This document shows, piece after piece, positions 48,417 through 63,891 of a stretch of DNA of 64,000 bases; position 1 is the first letter of the stretch, and each line of letters starts with the position of its first letter. The stretch covers positions 124,001 to 188,000 of the forward strand of contig NZ_CP084058.1 of the NCBI RefSeq assembly GCF_020215645.1, written 5' to 3'. A model generated the notes under the pieces. That model was not told the DNA's origin and did not search any database. It saw only the letters and a program-made list of their open reading frames with translations. Source of the DNA: Nonomuraea gerenzanensis (lineage in GTDB: Bacteria; Actinomycetota; Actinomycetes; Streptosporangiales; Streptosporangiaceae). The translations under genes and the position numbers were made by a program.

Positions 48417-48635
48417 ATGACTACAGTGGGTTACGACGTAGAAGCGCTCCGCACCGCGTTCCCCGACTGGTCGTTCTTCTTCAGCGACGAGGGTGTTCTC
48501 TACGCGACGAGGCGCGGGGTCCGGCTCGACGACGCCGACATCCTCAAGGGGTTGCATCAGACGGTCAGCGCGAACGACGTGGAGACGGTCGTCGACCTCC
48601 TGCAGGACCAGGCGCGGGTGGCCGCGGCGTCATAG
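48417..48635 (+). CDS. 72-aa hypothetical protein
   Basis: Small soluble protein: ALRTAFPDWSFFFSDEGVLYATRRG resembles a short domain recurrent in actinobacterial hypothetical proteins (aromatic-rich, FPxW...YATR). No function known. Its last 6 bp overlap the convergent fxsT gene. Confidence 0.7.
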   Translation: MTTVGYDVEALRTAFPDWSFFFSDEGVLYATRRGVRLDDADILKGLHQTVSANDVETVVDLLQDQARVAAAS

Positions 48636-51164
48636 CACCGGAGGGTCGAAGTCGAAGTCGAGGCGCCGGCGCTGCTCCGCCACGTCCACGTCCGGATGCC
48701 CCGGCCCCAGCACGCGCAGGTAGCGCTGCAGCGTGTCGGCCTTGAGCGTCTCCGCCGCGCTCTTTTCGCCGAGTCTGGTCAGGTCCACGACGAGGTTCGC
48801 CGCCGCCGCCAGGGTCAGCGGGTGGTCGGGGCCGAGCAGCTCGCGCAGCCGGCCCAGCGTGTTCTCGCCCAGCAGCCTGGCCTGCTCGTGCTCGCCGGTC
48901 TCCGCCAGGTCGCTGGCGAGGTTGATCGCACAGGTGAGGGTGAAGTGGTGGTCGCGGGTCAGTCGCCGGTCGAGCCCGTCGAGGGCCTGGCCGTCGAGGG
49001 TCACCGCCTCGGCCGCGCGGCCGTTGACCCGCAGCAGCAGGGCGAGGTTGGTGTCACAGCCGTACCTGAACGGGTGGTCGGCGCCGTACATGGCCTGGAA
49101 CTGCGGGGTCAGCTCCTCCAGCAGGCTCAGGGCCTCGGCCGTCTCGCCGGACGCGCGCTGCGCGTTGGCCAGGCACAGGCCGGCCGCCAGGGTGTCGGGG
49201 TGGTGCATGCCGGCGCTGCGCTGCTGCAGCTCGAACGTGCGCCGCGCCAGATCGAGGGCCTCGTCGGCCTTGGCGTCGCGGCGCTTGGCGATGGACAGGT
49301 CCTTGGCGACGCGCAGCGTCCACGGGTGCTCGACGCCTAGCTGCTCGACGCCGTACTCGTAGGCGTCCTCGCCGAGGTCGCACGCCTCGCGGTACTTGCC
49401 GCTCAGCCGTACGACGCGGGCCAGGCCGTTCCAGGACGACAGCACGTTCATGCTGCTGGCCCCGGAGCCCGGCCGCCGCTGCAGGCGGAACGTGGTGGAC
49501 TGCAGGTCGAGGGCCCGCTCGTAGTTGCCGAGCAGCAGGTAGTCGAGGGCCAGGTTGTTCATCGCGCGCAGGGTGCGCCGGTGCTCGGCCCCGAAGACCT
49601 CCTCGTGCCTGCGCAGCGAGTCGAGGTCGTGCTGCAGCGCCTCCGCGAAGTCGCCGCGGAAACGCAGGTCGGCGCCGTGGCTGTTGAGCAGCAGCAGCGT
49701 CTCCTCGTGATCCTCGCCGAGCACCTCGCGCATCTGCACCAGCAGGCGCTGGTTCAGCTCGAACGACTCGGCGATGTTGCCCAGCTCGCGGGTCACGATG
49801 GCCAGGTGGCGCTGCGCCGACAGGACGTTCTGGTCGTCGTCGCCGCTGGTGGCCCGCCACTGGGAGATGCACCGGTCGACCAGCATCTGCGCCGACTTGA
49901 AGTCGCCGGAGGAGTAGAGGTAGCGGATCATCGTGAGCGTGAACCGCCGGATGCGCTCGTCCTCGGAGTGGTCCACCTGCGACGGCGTGACGTGGCCCAG
50001 CAGGCCGGCGTAGCGGGGCCAGGCGGCGGTGTCGTCGGGCTCGTACGGGTCCGTCGCGGCGGCCATGAGCAGGTGGGCCTCGTTGCGCATGATCACCCGC
50101 TCCTCGGGCGCCAGGTCGTCGCGCAGCAGGGCCTGGACCAGCCGGTGGATCTGCAGCGTGCGGCTCGCAGAGTCGATCTTGACCAGCGCGAACCGGCCCA
50201 GCTCGCGCAGGATGCGGCTGGTCACGATGGGGTCGGCCAGCGTCTCCGCCAGCTTCGAGCCCTCGGCGAACTCGGGGGGCAGCCGGTCGAACAGGTCGCG
50301 CGGGATCGGCTCGGGGCCGAAGAAGGCGCAGCAGCGCAGCAGCTCGACCGCGATGGGCATGCGGGTGGTGAGCTGCGAGACCGACAGCGCCCACGCGGCC
50401 GACATCGACAGCGGGTAGTCGGCGGGCTTGTTGGTGCCCAGCAGCCGGGTGGTCTGCTCGTCCAGCAGCCGCAGGTAGTCCTTCACCGAGATCGTGGTCT
50501 CGACCTGGAGGGCGCCCGCCTGCTCCAGGGCCAGCGGCAGGTCGCCGAGCGCCTCTGCCAGCTCGTCGGCCTCGGTCTCGCTGATGCCGTGCGGCACGCG
50601 CTTGGTGAGGAACTCGATGCTCTCGGCGCGGGGGAAGACGTCGACCGCCAGGGTGTCGACGACCCCCTGCCAGCTGTGGTTGCGTGAGGTGATCAGCACG
50701 TGCCCCGGGCCTCTGGGCGCGATCGTGTTGATCTCGTCGACCTCGTCGGCGTTGTCGAAGATGAGCAGCCACTTGGCGTACGGCACGCCGCGGCGCAACG
50801 CGTCCAGCGCGGCCTCGGCCGCCTCCTCGACCCCGGTGGAGGGGCCGATGGGCAGGCGTAACTCGCGGGCGAGCCCGGCCAGCGACGACTTCACCAGCAT
50901 CGGCTGGTCGGCCGGGATCCACCAGACCAGCTCGTACTCCTTGCGGAAGCGGTGGGCGTACTCGATCGCGAGCTGCGTCTTGCCGACACCGCCCAGCCCG
51001 TGCAGCGCGTGCGGGACGACGGCGGTGACGTCGGACAGCAATCCGTCGTGCAGCGCGCGCAACAGATCGGAACGCCCCGTGAAGTTCATGTTGCGTTGCG
51101 GGACCCGGCCCCAGATGGCGGGAAGTTGTCCGGAGGATTCCGGCGAATAGTGCGAAACCGACAC
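48630..51164 (-). CDS. fxsT: FxSxx-COOH system NB-ARC/TPR protein FxsT
   Basis: 844 aa. GTG start with GGAGG about eight bases upstream. N-terminal P-loop NTPase of STAND/NB-ARC type (about residues 20-330): GLGGVGKTQLA Walker A, LLIFDNADEVD Walker B and the LPLALEQAGAL (GLPL-like) motif. Then a winged-helix region and about ten TPRs (about 430-830), the last ones reading LGPDHPLTLAAAANL, in the kinesin-light-chain style. Known companion of FxsA/FxsB loci. Divergent from fxsA with a 148 bp promoter region. Probably a nucleotide-controlled sensor or assembly platform; target unknown. Confidence 0.9.
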   Translation of the reverse strand: MSVSHYSPESSGQLPAIWGRVPQRNMNFTGRSDLLRALHDGLLSDVTAVVPHALHGLGGVGKTQLAIEYAHRFRKEYELVWWIPADQPMLVKSSLAGLARELRLPIGPSTGVEEAAEAALDALRRGVPYAKWLLIFDNADEVDEINTIAPRGPGHVLITSRNHSWQGVVDTLAVDVFPRAESIEFLTKRVPHGISETEADELAEALGDLPLALEQAGALQVETTISVKDYLRLLDEQTTRLLGTNKPADYPLSMSAAWALSVSQLTTRMPIAVELLRCCAFFGPEPIPRDLFDRLPPEFAEGSKLAETLADPIVTSRILRELGRFALVKIDSASRTLQIHRLVQALLRDDLAPEERVIMRNEAHLLMAAATDPYEPDDTAAWPRYAGLLGHVTPSQVDHSEDERIRRFTLTMIRYLYSSGDFKSAQMLVDRCISQWRATSGDDDQNVLSAQRHLAIVTRELGNIAESFELNQRLLVQMREVLGEDHEETLLLLNSHGADLRFRGDFAEALQHDLDSLRRHEEVFGAEHRRTLRAMNNLALDYLLLGNYERALDLQSTTFRLQRRPGSGASSMNVLSSWNGLARVVRLSGKYREACDLGEDAYEYGVEQLGVEHPWTLRVAKDLSIAKRRDAKADEALDLARRTFELQQRSAGMHHPDTLAAGLCLANAQRASGETAEALSLLEELTPQFQAMYGADHPFRYGCDTNLALLLRVNGRAAEAVTLDGQALDGLDRRLTRDHHFTLTCAINLASDLAETGEHEQARLLGENTLGRLRELLGPDHPLTLAAAANLVVDLTRLGEKSAAETLKADTLQRYLRVLGPGHPDVDVAEQRRRLDFDFDPPVL

Positions 51165-51312
51165 GATTACCGCCTCCGCTAGCCCCGGGCTTTAATCGAG
51201 CTTAGACGTCGTGCAGATGCAGGTGAAGCCCATAGACTGCCAGTCTCGCCTTGAGTTCTCAACCGTGCGAGGATGAGACCCGCACAGTTGTCATCCGGGC
51301 CCGGAGAGTGTT

Positions 51313-51477
51313 ATGGACAGCGCAGAAGGAGAATACGGCGGAGGTCTCATCGATGTCAGCGGATGGAGCTTGAGCGACCTCGACGGGTTGCCCTCCACTC
51401 CCCTGACATCGGCCCTGCGCCGCCTGGTGGAAGAGACGGGCTCCGGCCCGGTGGCGGGTTTCCAGTCGGCGCTATGA
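51313..51477 (+). CDS. fxsA: FxSxx-COOH precursor peptide FxsA
   Basis: 54 aa, ATG at 51313 with GGAGAG five bases upstream, TGA at 51475. The C-terminus is F-Q-S-A-L, matching the FxSxx signature that names the family. Leader part IDVSGWSLSDLDGL and TSALRRLVEE resemble other FxsA leaders. Too short for ordinary gene finding. It is first in a plus-strand set with sir2, STAND, fxsB and the HExxH gene. Predicted substrate of the radical SAM enzyme FxsB; modified residues unknown. Confidence 0.9.
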   Translation: MDSAEGEYGGGLIDVSGWSLSDLDGLPSTPLTSALRRLVEETGSGPVAGFQSAL

Positions 51478-51568
51478 ATCGCCGGCGCGAGGTCTTAGCC
51501 TGAACCAACGCCATTGTGTTACGGCAATTTTAATTCTCAGGCACACGATGTGATGTCGGGATGGGCGC

Positions 51569-52447
51569 GTGAAGGATGCCGACTGGGACCGGCTGGTCCG
51601 ACAGTTGCGTCGCGGGGATTGCACGCCCCTTCTCGGTGCGGGCGCGTGTTCCGGACGGTTACCGACCGGCAGGCAGCTCAGCCAAAAATTCGCCGGCATC
51701 TATAAATATCCTTTCACCGATGTGCACAACCTGCCCCGGGTCATGCATTACGCGGTCACGGCCAACGGCGATCCGGTCGATCTCAAACACCAGGTGTGCA
51801 GCTATCTGCAGGAGTACGCGCCGCCCGCCGACGACCCCCCACCCGTGATCGACCCGCACGAGGTGCTGGCGCAGTTTCCGATCAGGACCTTCCTGACCAC
51901 CAACTACGACGACTTCATGGCCACCGCGCTGCTCCAGGAGAAGTCGTGCCGCAAGAACCCCACCAGCACGTTCCCCAAATGGTGGGACACCGAGGAGGAA
52001 GAGCCGCACCTCGACCTGCCGACGCACGAGGAGCCGCTGATCTACCATCTGCACGGCCGCTGGGACGAGCCCGGCTCGCTGGTGCTCACCGACGACGACT
52101 ATCTGACGTACCTGGTGAACATGGTCGAGGCCCGCGCCGCCAACGACCAGCCCCCCTTACCCAGCACCGTGATCCGCGCGATGACCTCCCACCCCCTGCT
52201 CTTCGTCGGCTACAGCCTCCAGGACTGGAATTTCCGCGTGCTGTTCCACGGGCTGCTCAAGGCGATGCCGCTGATCATGCGGCGGCGGCACATCAGCGTG
52301 CAACTGATGCCGGATCTCAACGAATCCGTGGCCGACGCGGCCGACCGCGCGCGCGAATATCTCGAGAAGTACCTCAACGACTGGAGCATCACGATCTTCA
52401 TCGGCACCACGCAGGAGTTCTTCGAGCAACTGCGTTGGAGGATGTGA
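51569..52447 (+). CDS. SIR2-like NAD+-hydrolase domain protein
   Basis: 292 aa, SIR2 domain over nearly the whole length. Motifs: PLLGAGACSGRLPTGRQL (GAG, NAD+ ribose loop), FLTTNYDDFM (NxD), IYHLHGRWDEP (catalytic His) and LLFVGYSLQDWNFR (GYS/D). These match the NAD+-cleaving SIR2 proteins of bacterial conflict systems (ThsA/DSR types) rather than zinc-binding deacetylases, as the Zn cysteines are absent. Located 91 bp after fxsA and 10 bp before the STAND gene; GTG start. Probably the effector of the locus. Confidence 0.88.
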   Translation: MKDADWDRLVRQLRRGDCTPLLGAGACSGRLPTGRQLSQKFAGIYKYPFTDVHNLPRVMHYAVTANGDPVDLKHQVCSYLQEYAPPADDPPPVIDPHEVLAQFPIRTFLTTNYDDFMATALLQEKSCRKNPTSTFPKWWDTEEEEPHLDLPTHEEPLIYHLHGRWDEPGSLVLTDDDYLTYLVNMVEARAANDQPPLPSTVIRAMTSHPLLFVGYSLQDWNFRVLFHGLLKAMPLIMRRRHISVQLMPDLNESVADAADRAREYLEKYLNDWSITIFIGTTQEFFEQLRWRM

Positions 52448-52457
52448 GGGCGGCCGC

Positions 52458-54095
52458 GTGCCAGAGCTGGATCCGCATGTGCACCCGTACGTGGGGCTCC
52501 GCCCTTACCGGCGGGAGGAGAGCGCGCTGTTCCACGGCCGCGAGCGGGAGGCGCAGGAGGTCGCCACCCTCTGGCAGGCCACCGGGCTGACCGTGCTCTA
52601 CGGCGCCTCGGGCGTGGGGAAGACCTCCCTGCTGCACGCCGGGGTGCTGCCGCTACTGGACCCCGAACGGGCCGACGTGCTGCCCGTCGCCCGGATCGGC
52701 TCCCATCTGGCCCCCTCCGAGTCCGGCGGCAACCCGTACGTGGTGGCGCTGCTGTCGTCGTGGGAGCCCGAGCTCGACGCGCGCCGGCCGGCGTCGCTGA
52801 CGATCTCCGAGTACCTGCGGCGCAGGCCCGAGCGCACCGACCTCTACGGCGACCCCGTGCCCATGCTGGCGGCCGTCGACCAGGCGGAGGAGATCTTCCA
52901 CGGCTCCCCGCGCCTGGAGAAGGAGCGCAAGGTCTTCCTGGAGCAGCTGGCCACCGCCGTGCGCACGCACCCCGGCCTGCACGTCCTGCTCTCGCTGCGC
53001 GAGGAGTACCTCTTCCTCGTGCTGCCCTACGAGCGCCCGATCGGGCAGGGCTCGCGGGCGCGCTTCCACCTGCACCCTCTCACCCCCGAGAAGGCCAAGG
53101 AGGCGGTGCGCAAGCCGCTGATCCACACGCACCGGACCATCACGCGGGCCGCCGCCGACCTGCTCATCGACGAGCTGCGCACGGTCGACTACGTCAACGA
53201 GATCGGCGAGACCTCCACCATCCAGCTCGACACCGTCGAGCCCATCCAGCTCCAGGTGGTGTGCTCGGCGCTGTGGGAGTCGCTCCCGGCGGAGGTCACG
53301 GAGATCACCGAGGACCACGCCCGCCTGTACGCCCAGGTGGAGGAGTTCCTCTTCGAGTTCTACAAGCGCACGATCGCCGACGTCGCCCGCGAGCACCGGG
53401 TGCCGGCCAACGAGATCCGCTTCTGGATGCGCAACGTCTTCATCACCGAGCACGGCACCCGCAACGCCGTGTACGAGGGGCTGCGCACCACCCAGGGCAT
53501 GCCCAACGAGGTCGTGCGCGCCCTGGAGGACCGCCACCTGCTCCGCGCCGAGCAGCGGCTCGGCATCCGCTGGTACGAGCTGACCCACGACCGGCTCATC
53601 GGCCCCGTCTCCCGCTCCGACGCGCCCGAGTCGTCCCTGCGGGAGGCCCGCCTGGCGCTGCAGGAGCAGAACTGGGAGGGCGCCAGGCGCCTGGCCGACG
53701 CGGCCGTGCGGGCCGCCGACGCGGGCGCCTCCTGGGTACGCGCCGAGGCCGCAGAGATCTTCGCCAGCGTGGCGGCGGCCAGGGGTGAGATCCACACCGC
53801 CCGCAAGTACTGCGAGGAGGCGGCGGGCATCTTCGCCGAGCGGCAGCGCTTCGACGGAGTGGCCAGGGCGCTGACCGCCGACGGCCTGCTGTGGCTGGCG
53901 CAGGGCGACCCGACCCGCGCCATCGAACGCATCAGCGCCGCGCTGAACTGGGCGCCGAACGACGTGGCCGCCCGGATCGCGCTGGCCGAGGCGCTGCTGC
54001 AGTCGGGCACCCCGAAGGCGGCCGACGCCATCATCAGCGGATTACCGTCAGATCTTGCCCAGCAGACGCTGAAAAAGCTTCGTGATCCGACGTGA
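52458..54095 (+). CDS. STAND-family P-loop ATPase with helical C-terminus
   Basis: 545 aa, GTG start. nSTAND1-type NTPase: VGLRPYRREESALFHGR opening, Walker A YGASGVGKTSLLHAG (about residues 46-60), Walker B in MLAAVDQAEEIF, sensor-like LLSLREEYLF. A winged-helix segment follows, then TPR-like alpha repeats (about 385-540, EARLALQEQNWEGARRLAD). Gaps of 10 bp before and 6 bp after place it firmly between SIR2 and fxsB. Predicted switch that oligomerises on sensing a trigger and activates an effector, presumably SIR2 (inference). Confidence 0.88.
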   Translation: MPELDPHVHPYVGLRPYRREESALFHGREREAQEVATLWQATGLTVLYGASGVGKTSLLHAGVLPLLDPERADVLPVARIGSHLAPSESGGNPYVVALLSSWEPELDARRPASLTISEYLRRRPERTDLYGDPVPMLAAVDQAEEIFHGSPRLEKERKVFLEQLATAVRTHPGLHVLLSLREEYLFLVLPYERPIGQGSRARFHLHPLTPEKAKEAVRKPLIHTHRTITRAAADLLIDELRTVDYVNEIGETSTIQLDTVEPIQLQVVCSALWESLPAEVTEITEDHARLYAQVEEFLFEFYKRTIADVAREHRVPANEIRFWMRNVFITEHGTRNAVYEGLRTTQGMPNEVVRALEDRHLLRAEQRLGIRWYELTHDRLIGPVSRSDAPESSLREARLALQEQNWEGARRLADAAVRAADAGASWVRAEAAEIFASVAAARGEIHTARKYCEEAAGIFAERQRFDGVARALTADGLLWLAQGDPTRAIERISAALNWAPNDVAARIALAEALLQSGTPKAADAIISGLPSDLAQQTLKKLRDPT

Positions 54096-54101
54096 CTGAT
54101 T

Positions 54102-55340
54102 ATGCTCGACGGCCATGACACCAGACGCGCGGGCCGGCCGGCCTTGCCTGAGTGGCCGCTGACACTCGACCTGGCCGCGCTCGTGGACCGCGGCTGGCGG
54201 CCGACCCCGTTCAGGCAGTTCATCCTGAAGATCCACAGCAGGTGCGACCTCGCCTGCACGTACTGCTACATGTACGAGATGGCCGACCAGAGCTGGCGCT
54301 CCAGGCCACCACGCATGGCGCCCGACGTGGTGGAGGCGGTGGCGGCGCGGATCGCCGAGCACGTCCGCGCGCACCGGCTGCCGTCCGTCGAGCTGATCCT
54401 GCACGGCGGCGAGCCGCTCCTGGTCAGCCCGGAGGGGATCGACGGGCTGGTCCGCACCGTGCGCGACGCGGTGGACGCGCCCGTCGCCGTGACCGTGCAG
54501 ACCAACGGGGTCCGGCTCGACAGGGCGTACCTGGGCGTGTTCGACCGGCTCGACGTGGGCGTGGGGGTCAGCCTCGACGGTGACCAGCGGGCACACGACC
54601 GCAGCCGCAGGACCGCCGGCGGCCACGGCAGCCATCACAAGGTGGCCGCGGGGCTGCGGCTGCTCGGCGAGCCGCCCTTCGACCGGCTGTTCCGCGGCCT
54701 GCTGTGCACGGTGGACCTGCGCAACGACCCGCTGGAGACCTATCAGGCGCTGCTGTCCTTCGGGCCGCCCACCATCGACTTCCTGCTGCCGCACGGCACC
54801 TGGGCGCAGCCGCCGCCGGGGCTGGGGGGCGAGGGCGGCGGCACGCCGTACGCGGACTGGCTGATCACGATCTTCGACGACTGGTACGCCGCGCCCGCCC
54901 GGCCCGCGGGCGTGCGCCTGTTCGAGGAGATCATCTTCCTGCTCCTCGGCGGCGGGTCGGCCAGCGAGCAGATCGGCCTGTCGCCCACCGCCATGGTGGT
55001 CGTCGAGACCGACGGCGAGATCGAGCAGTCGGACATCCTCAAGTCCGCCTTCGCGGGCGCGCCGGGCACGGGGTACCACGTGCTGCGCGACTCCTTCGAC
55101 GAGGTGCTCGCGCTGCCGTCCATCGCCGCACGTCAGATCGGCTGGGACGCGCTCTCGCCGACGTGCAGGGCCTGTCCGGTCGCCCGGGTGTGCGGCGGCG
55201 GCCACTATGCTCATCGCTATCGGCCTGGCAGCGGATTTCTCAACCCGTCGGTCTACTGCGCCGACCTGCTGCGACTCATCACCCACGTCGCCAGCACCAT
55301 CAAGCGTGACATCACGGCACTGCAGAAGGACTCCCGATGA
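54102..55340 (+). CDS. fxsB: FxsB family radical SAM/SPASM peptide-modifying enzyme
   Basis: 412 aa. Radical SAM motif CDLACTYCYMYEMADQSW (C-x3-C-x2-C binding the 4Fe-4S cluster), the GGEPLL and QTNGVRL motifs, and a C-terminal SPASM-like set CRACPVARVCGGG for auxiliary clusters. The family is defined by co-occurrence with FxsA. Catalyses S-adenosylmethionine-dependent modification of the FxsA peptide; product unknown. Stop overlaps the HExxH gene by 4 bp (ATGA). Confidence 0.92.
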   Translation: MLDGHDTRRAGRPALPEWPLTLDLAALVDRGWRPTPFRQFILKIHSRCDLACTYCYMYEMADQSWRSRPPRMAPDVVEAVAARIAEHVRAHRLPSVELILHGGEPLLVSPEGIDGLVRTVRDAVDAPVAVTVQTNGVRLDRAYLGVFDRLDVGVGVSLDGDQRAHDRSRRTAGGHGSHHKVAAGLRLLGEPPFDRLFRGLLCTVDLRNDPLETYQALLSFGPPTIDFLLPHGTWAQPPPGLGGEGGGTPYADWLITIFDDWYAAPARPAGVRLFEEIIFLLLGGGSASEQIGLSPTAMVVVETDGEIEQSDILKSAFAGAPGTGYHVLRDSFDEVLALPSIAARQIGWDALSPTCRACPVARVCGGGHYAHRYRPGSGFLNPSVYCADLLRLITHVASTIKRDITALQKDSR

Positions 55341-56623
55341 ACCTCGCAGAGCACCGCATCCCGGCCTCGGCCTTCGACGAGCTCGCCTCGGGCGCGGGCA
55401 GCAGGGACTCCGTGGAGCGGCTCAAGGCCGCCCAGCGCAGCAGGCACCTTCTCCTGCTGCGCGGCGTCCTGGAGACCACCCGCGACGCCGGCCACGGCCG
55501 CTGGCCGGAGGTGCGCCGGGCCTACGACCTGCTGGCCAGCGTGCAGGCGGCGCACCCGGAGGCGGTCAACGCCGTGCTGCACCACCCGTCGGTGGGCGCC
55601 TGGGCCCGCCACACGATCCAGACGCTCGAAACGCCCGAGCAGATGTCGGCCCTCGCCGCCGCCGCGGCCCTCCGCGCGCGCTTCGCCTGCGACCTCGACG
55701 TCTCCGTGGTGAACGGCGTGCTCAACCTGCCCTCGCTCGGACAGCTCACCGTCGGCCCCGGCGTCACCACGGTGACCGTGCACTGCTCGGCCGACGGCGC
55801 CGAGGTCTCCACGGGCGGCAGGTTCCTGCAGATCAGCGAGGACGAGCCGGGCTGGCGGCCACTGCGCCACCTGTCCGCGCGGGCCGCGGACGAGCACCTC
55901 GACGTGCTCATCGACGACCTCGACCCGCACCGCATGCCGGGCTCCGGCGCCCTGCGCGACCCCCTGACCCCGCAGGAGGCGGGCCACTGGCAGGGCCTCC
56001 TGGACGACGGCTGGGACCTGCTGGTCCGCAACCACCTGCCGATGGCCAGGCAGGTGTCGGCGGCCATCTCCGTCTTCACCCCCCTGTCGCCCCCGCCCAG
56101 CGGGATGTCCAGCGCCACCTCGCGCGAGACGTTCGGCTGCATCGCCATGTCCACGCCCCCCGACGCGCACGCGCTGGCGGTCACGCTGGCGCACGAGACC
56201 CAGCACGCCAAGCTCTCCGCGCTGCTCGACATCGTGCCGCTGACCAAGCCCGACGACGGCTCCCGCCACTACGCGCCGTGGCGCCCCGATCCCCGGCCCG
56301 CCGCCGGGCTGCTGCAGGGCACCTACGCCTACGTCGGGGTCACCGAGTTCTGGGAGCGGCAGCGGCACCACGAGAGCGGCGAGTCGGAGATCAGGGCCAA
56401 CGCGGAGTTCGCCCGCTGGCGCTCGGCGGCCCGCCTGGTGGCCCGCACGCTGCTCGACAGCGGCGCGCTGACCGAGCCGGGGGTGAGCTTCGTGAGCGGG
56501 ATGGCGATGCGGCTGGAGGAGTGGGCCCGCGAGCCCGTGCCGGCCGCGGCGGCCACCCTGGCGGAGGGGGCCGCCGACCGGCACCGGTCGTTGTGGCGGG
56601 AGCGCAACGCGCGCGACGCCTGA
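55337..56623 (+). CDS. HEXXH-motif putative peptide-modification protein
   Basis: 428 aa. Belongs to the HExxH family found beside FxsB enzymes; LAHETQHAKLSALLDIVPL near residue 278 has the zinc-ligand motif HETQH. The N-terminal half is helical. Coupled to fxsB by an ATGA overlap. Predicted metalloprotein acting on the modified FxsA, either as peptidase or as hydroxylase-like enzyme; unproven. No fxsC gene is present. Confidence 0.85.
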   Translation: MNLAEHRIPASAFDELASGAGSRDSVERLKAAQRSRHLLLLRGVLETTRDAGHGRWPEVRRAYDLLASVQAAHPEAVNAVLHHPSVGAWARHTIQTLETPEQMSALAAAAALRARFACDLDVSVVNGVLNLPSLGQLTVGPGVTTVTVHCSADGAEVSTGGRFLQISEDEPGWRPLRHLSARAADEHLDVLIDDLDPHRMPGSGALRDPLTPQEAGHWQGLLDDGWDLLVRNHLPMARQVSAAISVFTPLSPPPSGMSSATSRETFGCIAMSTPPDAHALAVTLAHETQHAKLSALLDIVPLTKPDDGSRHYAPWRPDPRPAAGLLQGTYAYVGVTEFWERQRHHESGESEIRANAEFARWRSAARLVARTLLDSGALTEPGVSFVSGMAMRLEEWAREPVPAAAATLAEGAADRHRSLWRERNARDA

Positions 56624-56656: not shown

Positions 56657-57889
56657 TCAGACCCTGCCCATGGGCGGTCCATGTGTGTACGGCGGGGTCG
56701 GCGCGGGGCGGGCGCGCGGCCTGCGCATGATCAGCGCCGCGCCCACCAGGAACAGCAGGCCGACGCCCGCCGCCGCGCCGCCGATCCCCACGTAGGACAT
56801 GTCGATCTCCGGGTGGGTGGTCGGCGGCGCGACCGGCCCGTCACCGAAGAACTTCTCCCCCTTGTACGGAGCCGCCTCCGTCCTACCGTCCCCGGCGGCC
56901 CCCGCGGCCTTCACCGCCGCCCCCGCGTCGATCAGCCCGAAGCCCAGGTGCACGGTGTAGCCGCTCGGCGGCTGCTGCGCGGTCCGCACCAGGATGTCGC
57001 GCACCTGCCGCGGCGTCAGGCCGGGGTTGCGGGACAACATCAGCGCCACGGTCCCCGCCGCGAGCGCGCAGGCCGGGGAGGTGCCGTCACCCATCCGGTA
57101 GCCGCCGCCGTTGTCGGCGGCGTAGATGTCCACGCCGGGCGCGGCGATCGTATTGTAGGTGTGCACCTGCGAGAACTCCGCCCGCGCCCCGTCGGGCCCC
57201 ATCGCCGCCACCGCGATCACGCCCGGGTAGGCGGCCGGGTAGGAGACGGTGTTGTTGGCGTCCGTCTCCAGCGGGTCGGTGGAGCCGCCGTTGCCGGCGC
57301 TGGCCAGCAGGACGACCCCCTTGCCCAGGGCGTAGTCGACGGCCGAGGCGGTCAGCTCGTCGTAGTCGCTGCCGAGGCTCCACTCGTCGCTGCCGAGGGA
57401 CATGGAGATCACCCTGGCGCCCTTGTCGGCGGCGTACCGGATGCCCTTGGCCAGCGCGGTGGACGCCTTCATGCTCTGCTCGTCGGCGGGGCCGCCCGAC
57501 TCGGCGGCGGCCTCGGCCCGCTTGCGCGCCGGGTCCTCCTTGTCCCAGAGCACCCGCACGTCGAGCACCTTGGCCTGCGGAGCGACCCGCAGCACGCTGG
57601 AGGCCATGGCGGTGCCGTGATCGCCCCAGTACGACTGCCCCGGCCTGGCGCCGCCGCCGATGAAGTCGGTGCCGGTGGTGACCCGGCCGCGGAACTCCGG
57701 ATGGCCGCGCAGGACCCCGGAGTCGAGGACCGCGACCGTGATCCCCTTGCCCTGCCCGAGACGCTGGGCGGCGGGCACCTTCATGACCTGCTGCTCCCAG
57801 CCCCGCGGCGCCTCGGCGACGGCCGGCGCGGCGGTGGCCCCGGCCAGGGCGGCGACCAGCACGGCCGCGCAGGTCAGCCTGCGGATCAC
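56657..57889 (-). CDS. Mycosin-like S8 serine protease (type VII secretion-associated)
   Basis: 410 aa from the GTG at 57889. Signal peptide, subtilisin triad in VAVLDSGV (Asp), GDHGTAMASSV (His) and DGTSPACALAAG (Ser), and a C-terminal transmembrane helix (GIGGAAAGVGLLFLVGAALIM) as in MycP. Mycosins process or stabilise ESX systems, but no eccB/C/D/E or esx gene is nearby, so it is an orphan copy. GTGA overlaps join it to the upstream membrane protein. 33 bp separate it from the convergent HExxH gene. Confidence 0.9.
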   Translation of the reverse strand: MIRRLTCAAVLVAALAGATAAPAVAEAPRGWEQQVMKVPAAQRLGQGKGITVAVLDSGVLRGHPEFRGRVTTGTDFIGGGARPGQSYWGDHGTAMASSVLRVAPQAKVLDVRVLWDKEDPARKRAEAAAESGGPADEQSMKASTALAKGIRYAADKGARVISMSLGSDEWSLGSDYDELTASAVDYALGKGVVLLASAGNGGSTDPLETDANNTVSYPAAYPGVIAVAAMGPDGARAEFSQVHTYNTIAAPGVDIYAADNGGGYRMGDGTSPACALAAGTVALMLSRNPGLTPRQVRDILVRTAQQPPSGYTVHLGFGLIDAGAAVKAAGAAGDGRTEAAPYKGEKFFGDGPVAPPTTHPEIDMSYVGIGGAAAGVGLLFLVGAALIMRRPRARPAPTPPYTHGPPMGRV

Positions 57890-58725
57890 GGCCCCACCTT
57901 CCTGGACTCGGCCTGCACGCGGGTGGACAGGCTCTGCGCGAGCGCCTGGGCGGTGTGCGCCCACGGCTCGCGGTCCTCCTTCTGCGGGTAGGCCCGCCTG
58001 CCCCACGGCAGGGGCAGCCGTCCCGGCCTGCGGCCGTCCGCCGGTCCGGCGGTCACGGCCACGTACATGGGCGTGCCGCCGATGGTCCAGCCGCCGTTGC
58101 CGGCGCGCGCGGCGTCCTTCCACTGGGTGCCGGGGGCGGCGAGGGCGCGTACCACGTGATCGGGTTTCTCGTCGGCCTCGGCCACCACGTCCTGCAGCCC
58201 CTGGCGGGCGTAGTCGTCGTCACGGAAGGCGATCAGGGCCACGGTGGCGGCGGTTCCTCCCGTGTCGTCCAGGTACGTGGCGCGCAGGGCCGCGACGCAG
58301 CCGCTCTTGGCGGCGACCCGGGCCAGCTCGCCGGAGAGCGCCTGCTCGCAGGAGGTGCCGGTGGAGACGGCGGCCCTGGTCCAGCCGCGCTCGTCGTTCG
58401 GGTCGCGGTAGGTCTTGTCGGGGTGCTCCCGGCCCAGCCGCGCGGGGAACAGCGTCTCGGCGGGCACGTTGCGCCACAGCTGCCTGGCGTACTCGGGGTT
58501 GTGGATGACCTGCCGGCTGTTGGAGTACGCCTTCGCGATGAGCGCGCCGCCGCCCAGCAGGGGCAGCAGGCCGATGCCCGCGACGACCAGGCCCACGATG
58601 ATCCGCCACGGGCTGCGTGGCGGGCGCACCGGTGGTGGGGGCGGTGGCGGCGGCCAGGGCTGCGCGTGTGGGGGCGGCTGAGGGGGATATATCCCCGGCC
58701 CGGAGCCGGACGGGGGGTACATCAT
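57886..58725 (-). CDS. Proline-rich N-terminus membrane protein partnered with mycosin
   Basis: 279 aa from the ATG at 58725, with AGGAGAG just upstream. A 40-residue cytoplasmic Pro-rich stretch (PPPPPPP), one transmembrane helix (IIVGLVVAGIGLLPLLGGGAL), then an extracytoplasmic domain of about 200 residues. This gene pair (Pro-rich membrane protein plus mycosin) recurs in actinomycetes. Domain function unknown; perhaps mycosin substrate or anchor. Confidence 0.82.
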   Translation of the reverse strand: MMYPPSGSGPGIYPPQPPPHAQPWPPPPPPPPVRPPRSPWRIIVGLVVAGIGLLPLLGGGALIAKAYSNSRQVIHNPEYARQLWRNVPAETLFPARLGREHPDKTYRDPNDERGWTRAAVSTGTSCEQALSGELARVAAKSGCVAALRATYLDDTGGTAATVALIAFRDDDYARQGLQDVVAEADEKPDHVVRALAAPGTQWKDAARAGNGGWTIGGTPMYVAVTAGPADGRRPGRLPLPWGRRAYPQKEDREPWAHTAQALAQSLSTRVQAESRKVGP

Positions 58726-59911: not shown

Positions 59912-60744
59912 CCACCACGATCGCACCCGCCCGCGAGGTGGTCCAGGCCGCCGACCGCGTGGCCGCCGCCCGCCGCCGCGTCACCCTCGGGGAGACGGTC
60001 GGCCAGACCCTGACGATGGCCTGGCGGGCGCTGAAGAAGATGCGCAGGAACCCCGAGCAGTTCTTCGACGTGGCCCTGCAGCCCATCCTGTTCACCGCCA
60101 TGTTCGCCTTCATCTTCGGCGGCGCCATCGCGGGCGACGTGCAGAGCTACCTGCCTCTGATGATCCCCGGCATCCTCGCCCAGACCGTGCTGACCACCTG
60201 CATGGCCACCGGCACGCAACTGCGCGAGGACATGGAGAAGGGCGTCTTCGACCGGTTCAAGTCGCTGCCGATCGCCCGGATCGCGCCGCTGGCCGGCCCC
60301 ATGGTGGCCGACCTGCTGCGCTACACCATCGCCGCCACGCTCACCTTCGGCATGGGCATGGTGATGGGGTACCGCCCGGGCGGCGGGGCGGGCGGCCTGC
60401 TCGCCGCGATCCTGCTGGCGATCTTCACGGGGTGGTCGCTGGCGTGGGTCTTCACCTGGGTCGGCACGATCGCCCGCAGCGCGCAGGCCGTGCAGGGCAT
60501 CTCGATGATGATCCTGTTCCCGCTGACGTTCCTGTCGAACGCGTTCGTGCCCGTCGAGACGTTGCCCGACTGGCTGGCCGCGTTCGTCCGGGTCAACCCC
60601 GTCTCACACCTCGTCACGGCCGCCCGCGACCTCGCCAACGACGGGGTGGTCAGCGGCGCGGTGGCCTGGACGCTGCTGGCGTCGCTGATCGTGATCGCCG
60701 TCTTCGCCCCACTGTCGGTACGCAGCTACAAGCGGCACCTGTGA
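59908..60744 (+). CDS. ABC-2 type permease, DrrB family
   Basis: 278 aa; TTG start at 59908 with GGAGGAGAG five bases upstream and overlapping the ATPase stop. ABC2 membrane domain with six helices; conserved FFDVALQPILFTAMFAFIFGG and the LPIARIAPLAGPMVADLLRY. Forms an exporter with the preceding ATPase, probably for hydrophobic drug-like molecules. Its last 141 bp overlap the 3' end of the opposite SARP gene. Confidence 0.92.
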   Translation: MTTTIAPAREVVQAADRVAAARRRVTLGETVGQTLTMAWRALKKMRRNPEQFFDVALQPILFTAMFAFIFGGAIAGDVQSYLPLMIPGILAQTVLTTCMATGTQLREDMEKGVFDRFKSLPIARIAPLAGPMVADLLRYTIAATLTFGMGMVMGYRPGGGAGGLLAAILLAIFTGWSLAWVFTWVGTIARSAQAVQGISMMILFPLTFLSNAFVPVETLPDWLAAFVRVNPVSHLVTAARDLANDGVVSGAVAWTLLASLIVIAVFAPLSVRSYKRHL

Positions 60745-63700
60745 CCGCTGCCCGGCACGCACCTGCTCGACGAGCCCGCGCGCCTCGTCGAGCAGGTCGA
60801 AGCCGAGGCGGTCGCCGTAGTGCGCCCGCAGGGCCGCCACCGTGCCCGGCGCGGCCCGCTCCGCGTACGGCTCGATCCGCTCGAACGCCATGCTCGGCAT
60901 GGTGCCGTTGTAGGCGAACCGCTCGGCCAGCACCAGCAGCCTGATCGCGTCCTCTGGCGGCGCGGCGCCCCGCAGCAGCCCCCAGGCGCCCAGCGCGAAC
61001 AGCATCGAGCCGCACAGCGGGTAGTCGAGCGAGGGGTTGTGCACGGTCAGCACGTCGTGGCCGAGGACGGTGGCGAACAGCTCCGCGCCGTACGGCACGT
61101 CCTCCGGCGGGGCGTGGTAGGCGTACGCCGTCAAGGTGACCGCCTCCGCCACCATCGCCCACGGCGGGCACTCCGCCGGCGGCAGCCCCGGCAGGCGCAG
61201 GTCGCGCGAGCGCTGGACGGCCGTACGGTACGCCTCCAGCGCGGCCGCCGTCTCGCCCCGGGCGTAGGCCAGCTCGGCCGCGCACAACGAGACCATCGCC
61301 ACCCCGCCGAGCACGACCTCCTTGTCGTTGATCCGGTTGATCGCGGCCAGCTCGGCCTGCGCCGTCGCCAGGTCGCCGTCGGCCAGCGCGGAGGTCAGCA
61401 GCACCGCGCGAAGCTGGGTCTCGTCGTCGGCGGCGCCCAGCCGGCTGAGCACCGGGATCGACACCCGCGCGTGCCCGACGGCGCGCCGGCGGTCGCCGAG
61501 CTGGAGGTGCAGGTGGGCCAGCACGGCGTTCAGTATCGCGACGAACCACGGGCCCTCCCGGTCGCCGACCGCCGCCAGCGTCCACTCGGCGGCCTCGATC
61601 GCCCCGTGGATGTCGCTCGCGTTCTCCAACACGTGCACGCTCGCGTGCGCAGCGGCCAGCGCCACGTTCGGGTCGGGGCTGCGGCGCAGCTCCGCCAGCC
61701 GGCGCTGCAGCTCGGCGCCGTCGTCCGTGTGGCAGGCCAGCACCACCGTGACCAGCGCCGACACGCGGGGATGGGTCGACTCGCCCTCGGGCAGCGCGCG
61801 CAGCAGGTCACGCATCGGGTCGTCGCGGCGGTCGGTGGTGATCATGATGTTCATCAGCGTGACCAGCATGGCGACCCTGGTCACCTCGACGAGCTCCGGC
61901 GGCGGCCACCAGCCGGTGACCACCTGGGTGATCGCGTCGCGGTGGGCGATGATCCGCAGGTGGTCACCGCGGATCGACCACAGCGTGCCCACCCCGGCCA
62001 GCAACTGCACCGTCGTGACCGGGTCGGACTCGCCCAGCGCCTGGCGGAGCAGGTCGGCGAGGTTGCCCTCCTCGGCGCGCAGCGCGTCGGCCGCCGCGAA
62101 CTGCTCGGGGCCGAACAGCTCGGCGGCGTGCCGGAGGGCGTACTCCGTGGCCCAGGCCCGCTGCGCCGCCCTGGCCGGCTCCTGCTCGCCGGCCTGCCTC
62201 AGCCGCATCCGGCCGAACTCCCTGACGGTCTCCAGCATCCGGTAGCGCAGGCCGTACGCCGTCTCGCGGACGCTCAGCATCGACTGCTCGGTCAGCGCGT
62301 CCAGGGCGTACAGCGCGTCGGGGCCCAGCACCTGCTCGGCCGCCTCCAGCGTGAAACCGTCGCCGAACAGCGACAACCACCGCAACGCGCGCCGCTCCCG
62401 CTCCTCCAGCAGGTTCCACGACCAGTCGATGACGGCGAGCAGCGTCTGATGCCGGTCGGGGGCCGTCCTGTTGCCGCCGCGCAGCAGCGCGAACCGGTCC
62501 GCCAGGCGGCGCGCGATCTCCTCCACCGACATCACCCGCACCTTGGCCGCGGCCAGCTCGATCGCGAGCGGCAGCCCGTCGAGCCGGGCGACGACCTCCT
62601 CGACCACCCTGTCGTCGATCCGCACCCCGGGCCTGGCGGCCGTGGCCCGCTGGCGGAACAGCTCCACGGCGTCGCCGGTCGGCAGCTCGCCCAGCGGGTA
62701 GACCCGTTCGGCGGGGATCGACAGGGCGGCCCGCGAGGTGGTGAGCACCCGCAGGTCGCGGGTCGTCACGGTGAGGAACCCGACCAGATCGGCCACCGCC
62801 TCGATCACGTGCTCGCAGTTGTCCAGGATCAGCAGCGCCGGCGCCTGGTCGAGCTGCTGCGCGATCCGCGCGCGGACGTCGGCGCGCTGCTGGGCTGTCA
62901 GCACGTGCCGCCCGCCCACCGAGTCGCGCACCCCCAGCGCCGAGCCCACCTCGCCCACCACGCCCGCCGGCGAGGAGACGCCGACCAGCTCGATGAAGTG
63001 GGCGACCGGCTGCGCGGCGTTCCTGCCGGCCACGTGGGCCAGCCGGGTCTTGCCCAGCCCGCCGGGGCCGACGATGGAGACCACCCGGTTGGTCTGCAGC
63101 AGGGCGTGCACCGCCCGGATGTCGTCGTCGCGGCCCAGCAGCGAGGAGCCGTCGAACAGGATGCCCTCGCGCACCGGCCGGTCCGTGACGAGCAGCTCGG
63201 CGTACACGCGGGCCAGCTCGGGCCCCGGCTCCGCGCCCAGCCGCGCCACCAGGCCCGCCCGGTACCGCTCGTAGCGCTCCAGCGCCGCAGCGGCACCCCG
63301 TACGGCGGCCTCGCTGCGCAGCAGGCAGGCGAGCAGCTCCTCGTCGTGCGGCTGCTCGCCGCACGCCTCCTCCAGCAGCGGCAACGCGCTCTCGTGCGCG
63401 CCGCTCCTGCCCCGCGCGATCGCCGCCACCCGCCGCGCCTCGCCCACCCACCGCCCCGCCACGCTCCGCAACTCGGCCAGCGGCCCTGCCTCGCCGTTCA
63501 ACCCGCCCGCCACCAGCCCCAAGGCCGCTTCCGCCCGCCCCCGCGCCGCCGCCACGTCATCCTCGGCCAGCGCCGCCCGAGCCTGCCCGACCAGCACGCC
63601 GAGCAGCGACGCGTCCACCTGCTCGGGGGGCAGCCCGAGCCGGTACCCCCGGGGGATCCGCTCCACCACCTCAGGCCCGGTCGCCGCCCTCGTCCGCGAG

Positions 63701-63891
63701 ACCACCACCTGCAACGCCTTCGTCGGGTTCGCCGGCGCCTCCTCCGGCCACAGCTCCTCGACCAGCCGGTCGTCGCCGACTCCCGCGCGTCCGTGCAGGG
63801 CGAGCACGGCCAGCAGGGTGTGGGCGCGATCGCCGACGACGCGCACGCCGTGCCAGCGGACGCCGTCGAGCAGGACCAGTGCGGGGGACAC
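60604..63891 (-). CDS. SARP/AfsR-type regulator (wHTH-BTAD-NB-ARC-TPR), overprinted tail
   Basis: 1,095 aa, GTG start. N-terminal winged helix (about 1-90) with HTLLAVLALHGRAGVGDDRLVEELWP, BTAD domain (about 95-240), NTPase with Walker A SIVGPGGLGKTRLA and LLILDNCEHV, then alpha-solenoid repeats. Large ATP-dependent transcription regulator of secondary metabolism or transport. The final ~47 residues are encoded antisense to the drrB 3' end and look like translated antisense, implying loss of an earlier stop near 60760. Target genes are probably the adjacent drrAB (inference). Confidence 0.85.
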   Translation of the reverse strand: MSPALVLLDGVRWHGVRVVGDRAHTLLAVLALHGRAGVGDDRLVEELWPEEAPANPTKALQVVVSRTRAATGPEVVERIPRGYRLGLPPEQVDASLLGVLVGQARAALAEDDVAAARGRAEAALGLVAGGLNGEAGPLAELRSVAGRWVGEARRVAAIARGRSGAHESALPLLEEACGEQPHDEELLACLLRSEAAVRGAAAALERYERYRAGLVARLGAEPGPELARVYAELLVTDRPVREGILFDGSSLLGRDDDIRAVHALLQTNRVVSIVGPGGLGKTRLAHVAGRNAAQPVAHFIELVGVSSPAGVVGEVGSALGVRDSVGGRHVLTAQQRADVRARIAQQLDQAPALLILDNCEHVIEAVADLVGFLTVTTRDLRVLTTSRAALSIPAERVYPLGELPTGDAVELFRQRATAARPGVRIDDRVVEEVVARLDGLPLAIELAAAKVRVMSVEEIARRLADRFALLRGGNRTAPDRHQTLLAVIDWSWNLLEERERRALRWLSLFGDGFTLEAAEQVLGPDALYALDALTEQSMLSVRETAYGLRYRMLETVREFGRMRLRQAGEQEPARAAQRAWATEYALRHAAELFGPEQFAAADALRAEEGNLADLLRQALGESDPVTTVQLLAGVGTLWSIRGDHLRIIAHRDAITQVVTGWWPPPELVEVTRVAMLVTLMNIMITTDRRDDPMRDLLRALPEGESTHPRVSALVTVVLACHTDDGAELQRRLAELRRSPDPNVALAAAHASVHVLENASDIHGAIEAAEWTLAAVGDREGPWFVAILNAVLAHLHLQLGDRRRAVGHARVSIPVLSRLGAADDETQLRAVLLTSALADGDLATAQAELAAINRINDKEVVLGGVAMVSLCAAELAYARGETAAALEAYRTAVQRSRDLRLPGLPPAECPPWAMVAEAVTLTAYAYHAPPEDVPYGAELFATVLGHDVLTVHNPSLDYPLCGSMLFALGAWGLLRGAAPPEDAIRLLVLAERFAYNGTMPSMAFERIEPYAERAAPGTVAALRAHYGDRLGFDLLDEARGLVEQVRAGQRSQVPLVAAYRQWGEDGDHDQRRQQRPGHRAADHPVVGEVAGGRDEV
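60761..60797. terminator. Terminator hairpin after drrAB, inside the SARP reading frame
   Basis: ACCTGCTCGACGAG (60761-60774) pairs perfectly with CTCGTCGAGCAGGT (60784-60797), 14 bp stem, 9 nt loop; 17 bp past the permease stop. Confidence 0.7.

Follow-up and report, generated by a model that had tools for sequence, protein, structure and literature searches.

A SIR2–nSTAND1 gene pair linked to predicted FxSxx-COOH peptide systems in Nonomuraea gerenzanensis and related bacteria

The window analysed here, a stretch of 64,000 nt from Nonomuraea gerenzanensis (contig NZ_CP084058.1, positions 124,001 to 188,000), contains six adjacent genes in which a predicted system for a ribosomally synthesized and post-translationally modified peptide (RiPP) of the FxSxx-COOH type occurs together with genes for a SIR2 protein and a STAND NTPase. 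A preliminary description had placed all of them except the divergent fxsT in one transcription unit, and had proposed that the peptide is a modified signal or switch controlling a response that depletes nicotinamide adenine dinucleotide (NAD+). We find that one branch of FxSxx systems has the SIR2–nSTAND1 pair as a dedicated module; the recurrence of the same gene set in many related bacteria suggests that the peptide probably helps to control the predicted NAD-destroying enzyme.

Gene content of the locus

The coordinates and families of the six genes given in the preliminary description were confirmed, the NCBIfam or Pfam cut-offs being passed (positions are those of the window):

48630..51164, minus strand: fxsT, 844 amino acids; NB-ARC, DUF7779 and TPR domains; NCBIfam NF040586, 1008 bits (cut-off 300)
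51165..51312, no strand: fxsT–fxsA intergenic region, where both promoters are expected; partly conserved in loci L002, L003 and L155
51313..51477, plus strand: fxsA, precursor of 54 amino acids ending in GFQSAL (FxSxx-COOH); TIGR04268, 44.9 bits (cut-off 28)
51569..52447, plus strand: SIR2, 292 amino acids; Pfam PF13289, 1.6e-28; N112 in TTNYD and H162 in HG
52458..54095, plus strand: nSTAND1 NTPase (STAND), 545 amino acids; PF20703, 1.8e-34; C-terminal TPRs (TPR_19, 4e-9)
54102..55340, plus strand: fxsB, 412 amino acids; radical SAM/SPASM; TIGR04269, 467 bits (cut-off 370); CxxxCxxC at residue 48
55337..56623, plus strand: HExxH, 428 amino acids; TIGR04267, 176 bits (cut-off 40); HETQH at residue 286

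FxsA, FxsB, the FxSxx TPR protein and the HExxH hydroxylase all scored above their cut-offs, as NCBIfam defines an FxSxx-COOH RiPP system. In the current NCBIfam, the HExxH family is an alpha-ketoglutarate peptide beta-hydroxylase, not a peptidase, and the FxsB family a cyclophane-forming maturase. In the NCBIfam scan SIR2 had no match and STAND only weak TPR-type matches, below cut-off; in a PADLOC scan SIR2 best matched ThsA-type models (9e-16) and STAND was without any match. Residues G49, G54 and K55 of the STAND P-loop were invariant in 40 aligned sequences. The STAND protein of the window is shorter than many of its relatives (ca. 640–690 amino acids), and it is also short where fxsB follows STAND elsewhere.

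The gaps of 91 nt between fxsA and SIR2, 10 nt between SIR2 and STAND, and 6 nt between STAND and fxsB, as well as the 4-nt overlap of fxsB and HExxH, agree with those of the preliminary description. No terminator-like site was found between 51100 and 56800, where shuffled sequence averages 1.1.

Distribution and gene order of the linked genes

Two surveys were made. In the forward survey, loci were found from FxsB, and the best 80 of 218 matches were kept, giving 79 loci. In the reverse survey, SIR2 was searched by sequence alone at E ≤ 1e-25, which also defines the SIR2 subfamily, in 341 genomes of the family of the window and 394 genomes of its class, the latter including some of the same family. 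This yielded 116 SIR2 places in 110 regions (L111–L220, L111 being the locus of the window itself), or 104 loci when six stretches overlapping a neighbour are left aside. The ten regions from outside the family of the window (L211–L220) all belong to one other family of the class, here called the second family. A simple GC-frame rule served for gene calling, and the genes were identified with hidden Markov models derived from the proteins of the window and those of its relatives, FxsA being counted at a loose threshold of 0.1; open reading frame (ORF) starts were the longest possible, so that lengths and small gaps are approximate.

The preliminary description had expected SIR2 and STAND genes at most homologous fxs loci. 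Seen from FxsB this did not hold, since among the best matches kept SIR2 was present in only 10/79 loci and STAND in 15/79, the outcome named beforehand as contrary to the proposal; FxsB was above cut-off in 241 of the 341 genomes of the family, and the SIR2 subfamily occurred in 65. The association thus holds for one branch and not for fxs systems generally. Seen from SIR2, it is nearly absolute: the 110 regions contained STAND in 107 cases, FxsT in 106, FxsA in 98, HExxH in 95 and FxsB in 84, with FxsT plus at least one modifier in 96 (in the 104 non-overlapping loci: STAND 101, FxsT 100, FxsA 92, HExxH 89, FxsB 78, and STAND, FxsT and a modifier together 90). When SIR2 was clustered at 60 % identity, STAND and FxsT were both present in 30/34 clusters, and a modifier too in 27/34; at 50 % identity, the corresponding numbers were 14 and 12 of 18 clusters. 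The linkage spans unfused SIR2 copies down to 37 % identity, and in the second family STAND and FxsT were found in 10/10 regions and FxsB and HExxH in 9/10. The HExxH frames of the second family are longer (ca. 610–860 amino acids), with further residues next to the hydroxylase domain. Among the exceptions, L114 and L194 have SIR2 alone and L118 has SIR2 and STAND only; a further 11 loci, of which some lie at contig ends, lack FxsT, STAND or both modifiers.

The 12.07-Mb genome containing the window has three SIR2_2 domains, one FxsB, four HExxH, six FxsT-type and ca. 30 nSTAND1 places (FxsT and nSTAND1 above cut-off), and these few copies of SIR2_2, FxsB and HExxH rule out a chance assembly of the set. 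By arithmetic on this one genome, a 20-kb stretch would contain by chance HExxH in <1 %, FxsT in ca. 1 % and nSTAND1 in ca. 5 % of cases, versus the 95, 106 and 107 of 110 observed. The frequencies of the SIR2-anchored survey thus led us to reject the gene set as cargo or chance neighbours, and the earlier claim that SIR2 and STAND belong with the peptide system is borne out. Since the association is rare from the side of FxsB and nearly absolute from that of SIR2, the SIR2–nSTAND1 pair is a dedicated module of one FxSxx branch. The divergence of the five proteins is correlated (r 0.59–0.88, 79 units), but common descent could explain this as well as a joint function, and the correlation was not used as evidence.

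The 104 loci contain 106 unfused SIR2 genes. STAND lies directly downstream of 102 of them, with the start of its domain at −9 to +30 nt relative to the stop codon of SIR2; fxsT is divergent and upstream within 1.5 kb for 92/106, and fxsA precedes SIR2 on the same strand by no more than 400 nt for 72/106. FxsB follows STAND immediately, as in the window, in 11/104 loci; in 65/104, FxsB (with or without HExxH) is beyond fxsT on the other strand and converges on it, whereas 26/104 have no FxsB in the stretch and 2/104 show another order. These gene orders indicate a constant unit of fxsT facing (fxsA-)SIR2-STAND, to which movable modifiers are added.

Complete systems also occur as mirror-image pairs within one genome (L177/L178, L197/L198 and L206/L207), and in mirror-image systems (L175–L178, L197/L198, L206/L207) one of the two has FxsB and HExxH in one frame. 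A recurrent neighbour of ca. 260 amino acids was found in 24 loci (L130, L131, L135 and others), without a Pfam match in the two members scanned.

SIR2, FxsT and peptide sequences

In an alignment with ThsA chains, residues N112 and H162 of the window SIR2 fall on the TTNYD and HG motifs of the latter. Among distinct unfused SIR2 sequences, N112 was kept in 109/111 and H162 in 107/111, and outside the second family both were kept in 101/101. The protein is thus of the NAD-hydrolase type by its residues, in line with the preliminary description, and from its catalytic Asn and His we predict that it is an NAD+ hydrolase. Among the solved structures matched by SIR2 are those of ThsA, an NAD+ hydrolase, and of KomC, an NADase; public records name its relatives 'NAD-dependent protein deacylase'. 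A plasmid scan with SIR2 returned two records, one of 11.85 Mb from Nonomuraea gerenzanensis (99.7 % identity), taken as a chromosome because of its size, and an Ensifer plasmid (34.6 %). A viral source of SIR2 was rejected, no relative having been found on viral contigs in one scan able to find close relatives only.

FxsT proteins from elsewhere can carry an N-terminal TIR, ParA-like or EAD2 domain, at least one of the three being present in 7/10 proteins scanned. We called an FxsT bare when it had no match to three profiles (TIR, ParA and EAD2) built from Pfam-placed examples, as is the case for the FxsT of the window. Full-length FxsTs beside SIR2 were bare in 109/109 cases, and of the 92 others 50 were extended and 42 bare, counts that include near-identical loci more than once; beside SIR2 meant within 1.5 kb, so that the FxsTs of SIR2 loci L189, L191, L193, L209 and L217 were counted with the others. 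After clustering at 70 %, the bare form accounted for 33/33 beside SIR2 vs 30/60 others. Fisher p values were 5e-22 for all rows and 7e-8, 1.6e-4 and 2.5e-4 at 70, 60 and 55 % clustering, respectively. Both the TIR and the SIR2 fold consume NAD+ in known immune systems, and in our reading this would make NAD+ the output that the two naturally have in common.

In five places (four genomes of the genus of the window and one of another genus), an NB-ARC protein resembling FxsT has a C-terminal SIR2 fold that lacks N112 and H162:

FxsT-like–SIR2 fusions: L158:10617–13271, L161:6556–9186, L162:9172–11664, L172:6618–9209 and L183:7751–10444

In the three fusions scanned with Pfam, SIR2_2 was above cut-off in 3/3, DUF7779 was found in 3/3 (below cut-off in L161) and NB-ARC in 2/3 (below cut-off in L158). 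That an FxsT relative carries a fused, dead SIR2 while a further SIR2 lies next to it suggests a single complex in which FxsT and SIR2 may work together.

SIR2 loci with FxsB gave 80 FxsA matches. Of these, 54 end exactly in FxSxx; F-x-S/T lies within the final 15 residues of a further three, an aromatic residue alone occurs among the final 12 of 20 others, and the remaining three show none of these features. Loci L149 and L150 are without a local FxsB and keep the peptide end FQSAI, FxsB being encoded elsewhere in their genomes. The motifs of the modifiers are well preserved in SIR2 loci (HExxH in 94/95 and CxxxCxxC in 79/82).

The same genome contains a second system at 5.82 Mb (L112, 5265–12354), where FxsT, SIR2, STAND and HExxH accompany an FxsA-like peptide whose end contains Trp, and no FxsB is present. 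At 6.91 Mb (L222), the third SIR2_2 domain, more distant than the subfamily surveyed, lies directly beside an nSTAND1 match, no FxsT being detected in 20 kb; to judge from these two domains, the SIR2–nSTAND1 pair is here a module of its own.

Around the six genes of the window, an ORF of 72 amino acids (48417–48635) adjoins fxsT and has no family match, and an ORF of similar size and place exists in L003 (4304–4522). Convergent with the HExxH gene is a gene for a mycosin-like, subtilisin-type protease (56657–58123; 219.8 bits, below the cut-off of 278.75), for which a role as leader protease of the peptide is possible but unsupported. A protein of 1095 amino acids resembling BTAD/NB-ARC regulators is encoded a few kb from the gene set (60604–63891).

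A possible peptide-controlled switch and its known relatives

To our mind the chances are about even that the six genes constitute an intracellular switch in which modified FxsA, via FxsT and/or the nSTAND1 protein, controls a SIR2 NAD+ hydrolase that stops the cell. By analogy with family members, FxsB would introduce a cross-link close to the C-terminus of FxsA and the HExxH enzyme would hydroxylate this peptide, whose mature form might then be bound and recognized by FxsT, through its TPR platform, and/or by the nSTAND1 protein. Nucleotide-driven assembly would turn the tightly coupled SIR2 into an NAD+ hydrolase and so stop the cell, the most likely target, and putative trigger, being a phage or similar intruder. 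In favour of this reading are the steady linkage of STAND, FxsT and FxsA to SIR2, the tight SIR2–STAND spacing, the catalytic residues kept in most SIR2 copies, the bare FxsTs beside SIR2, the FxsT-like–SIR2 fusions and the preserved modifier motifs. As to the sign of the effect of FxsA, an activating or licensing signal is slightly favoured over an antitoxin-like restraint. More tentatively, and with clearly less confidence, stapled FxsA could be an intracellular immune ligand on which the threshold of a relay of two STAND proteins (FxsT and nSTAND1) depends; the NAD+-destroying output of this relay would be exchangeable, with SIR2 in trans in the window and TIR fused to FxsT elsewhere, and the dead fused SIR2 would be a docking piece. 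If this ligand exists, FxSxx peptides, rather than being antibiotics or hormones, would serve filamentous bacteria as switches for programmed cell death. If the modified peptide gates the SIR2 NADase, a function could be assigned to this peptide class, with FxsT as candidate receptor and NAD+ as a simple readout, and RiPP biosynthesis would be joined to STAND-type immunity, which is of wide relevance given how common FxsB is in the family.

A number of observations weigh against such a switch or restrict it. SIR2 is absent although FxsA, FxsT and STAND are kept in L012 and L022, and L014 is similar, with STAND apart; in the genome of the window itself, a locus at 1.64 Mb (L221, 6179–12082) encodes STAND, an FxsA-like peptide of 65 amino acids, FxsT and HExxH without SIR2 or FxsB. 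Of the second-family SIR2 copies, only 5/10 keep both the catalytic Asn and the catalytic His (one or both are missing from the unfused SIR2 of L212, L213, L217, L218 and L219, whose loci are otherwise similar), and NAD+ hydrolysis may therefore not be general. The best solved-structure match of the window SIR2, 9v0g, is deposited as 'NAD-dependent protein deacetylase', and the scan of viral contigs for close relatives provided no phage tie. Nine loci without FxsB and with HExxH, L112 among them, have a Trp-containing peptide end, some of these peptides matching the FxsA profile only weakly, so a cyclophane would not be essential to the SIR2 module. In an FxsT tree of 82 representatives, SIR2-linked FxsTs fall in two groups with some losses; the tree needs five changes for SIR2 and three for bare or extended FxsT, and an independent-pairs test is without power. 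The exclusivity of TIR and SIR2 thus rests on few events, and the 'effector swap' between them was rejected as a statistical result and kept as a pattern only. The proposed single transcription unit is deduced from the gene spacing, and the order it presupposes was seen in only 11/104 loci.

The mature peptide could instead be exported, as an inter-hyphal signal or a narrow antibiotic, with SIR2, STAND and FxsT as the sensing or self-limiting side, which we regard as unlikely. The preliminary description had dismissed a secreted product because no exporter gene lies in the set, and this argument stands for loci of the window type, 0/11 of which have a major facilitator superfamily (MFS)-type gene, but fails for the family. 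Genes of one BLAST-linked MFS-type cluster were found in the neighbourhood of 42/104 SIR2 loci and directly adjoin STAND in 37/104, on the same strand or convergent (e.g. L117:12476–13873 and L120:5844–7454), which fits a secreted peptide and makes its exclusion unsafe. The five members scanned, four of them among the 37, matched MFS_1 in 5/5 and MFS_3 in 4/5 (one below cut-off), and an MFS_3-type gene also adjoins FxsB in a locus without FxsT (L019). Export is in turn disfavoured by the 62/104 loci without a gene of this cluster within 6 kb of the set, and by the lack of a protease among the products of the six genes. Less likely again is an antitoxin-like arrangement in which mature FxsA would restrain FxsT, STAND and SIR2, and the loss of peptide synthesis or of its cofactors (S-adenosylmethionine, alpha-ketoglutarate, iron or oxygen) during infection would free the NADase. 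The position of fxsA within 400 nt upstream of most SIR2 genes, on the same strand, is in keeping with this arrangement, as is its presence in 98/110 loci, including some without modifiers nearby; its genetics, however, are identical to those of an activating ligand, and the present data do not fix the sign.

Distinctly improbable, in our estimation, is that SIR2 acts on the peptide or a partner protein, by deacylation or ADP-ribosylation, and not by NAD+ depletion. That SIR2 follows fxsA, the deacylase label of its relatives, the deacetylase label of 9v0g and the loss of a ThsA-type residue in half of the ten second-family copies would all agree with such a role; yet SIR2 also matches ThsA and KomC, it is tied to STAND (107/110), and the same modifiers occur in peptide systems without SIR2. 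That SIR2–STAND is unrelated cargo in the fxs locus is very improbable and already close to refuted: the pair at L222, with no FxsT detected within 20 kb, and the low forward frequency of 10/79 could be cited for it, but STAND, FxsT and FxsA stay with SIR2 (107, 106 and 98 of 110) down to 37 % SIR2 identity and across changes of gene order, and NB-ARC–SIR2 fusions exist.

Regarding known systems, the modifying enzymes resemble ChlB and ChlH, enzymes of cyclophane formation and beta-hydroxylation. The nearest solved structure of the window FxsB is ChlB (9gm3, 6e-71), and HExxH matched 22nu and then ChlH (8s5f, deposited as from Chlorogloeopsis); FxsB and HExxH are separate genes in the window. 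Thoeris ThsA consists of SIR2 and SLOG domains and occurs with the TIR protein ThsB. The active-site motifs of the window SIR2 align with those of ThsA, including N112 and the HG histidine; unlike in ThsA, only SIR2_2 was found in it, and no TIR was found among the 19 window proteins scanned. In Avs5, the Asn of TTNxD was shown to be needed, and HG can be NG (PMC12931631). The window shares with Avs5 a SIR2 with a TTNxD motif, a STAND NTPase and, in some, TPR-type repeats; the domains of Avs5 are in one protein, of nSTAND3 type, whereas the window has two genes 10 nt apart, nSTAND1, and in addition FxsT and the modified-peptide genes (PMC12931631).

Among the matches listed from openly licensed PMC papers, no title or abstract joined FxSxx peptides with SIR2 or nSTAND1, and no reported function of FxSxx peptides was found in that literature. 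The term FxSxx-COOH also occurs in PMC12734244, where it merely labels an entry in a table of fungal mutations. The name nSTAND1 is due to Kaur et al. (2021; PMC8195603), the available part of which has no mention of FxS.

The closest precedent is in Kaur et al. (2020; PMC7159879), where FxSxx-type peptide-processing genes are described together with TIR and AP-ATPase-TPR proteins, either standing alone or accompanied by VMAP systems. They are linked there to biological conflict, with a peptide toxin or signal as the proposed product. These systems share with the window the FxSxx precursor, the radical SAM/SPASM enzyme, the HExxH-type protein, there called a zincin-like metallopeptidase, and the AP-ATPase (NB-ARC)-TPR protein (PMC7159879). 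The window corresponds to their standalone form with an AP-ATPase, having fxsT divergent from fxsA and no ternary system, in that no MoxR, vWA or VMAP domain was found in the flanking proteins scanned (a part of the ORFs between ca. 40.5 and 64 kb). Some of the AP-ATPases of that paper bear TIR, and a MinD/ParA extension is mentioned, neither of which is present in the FxsT of the window; conversely, SIR2 and nSTAND1 are separate, added genes in the window, and the words 'Sir2' and 'sirtuin' are absent from the main text of PMC7159879. What is new with respect to these already predicted FxSxx systems is therefore the addition of SIR2–nSTAND1 as a conserved, dedicated output module.

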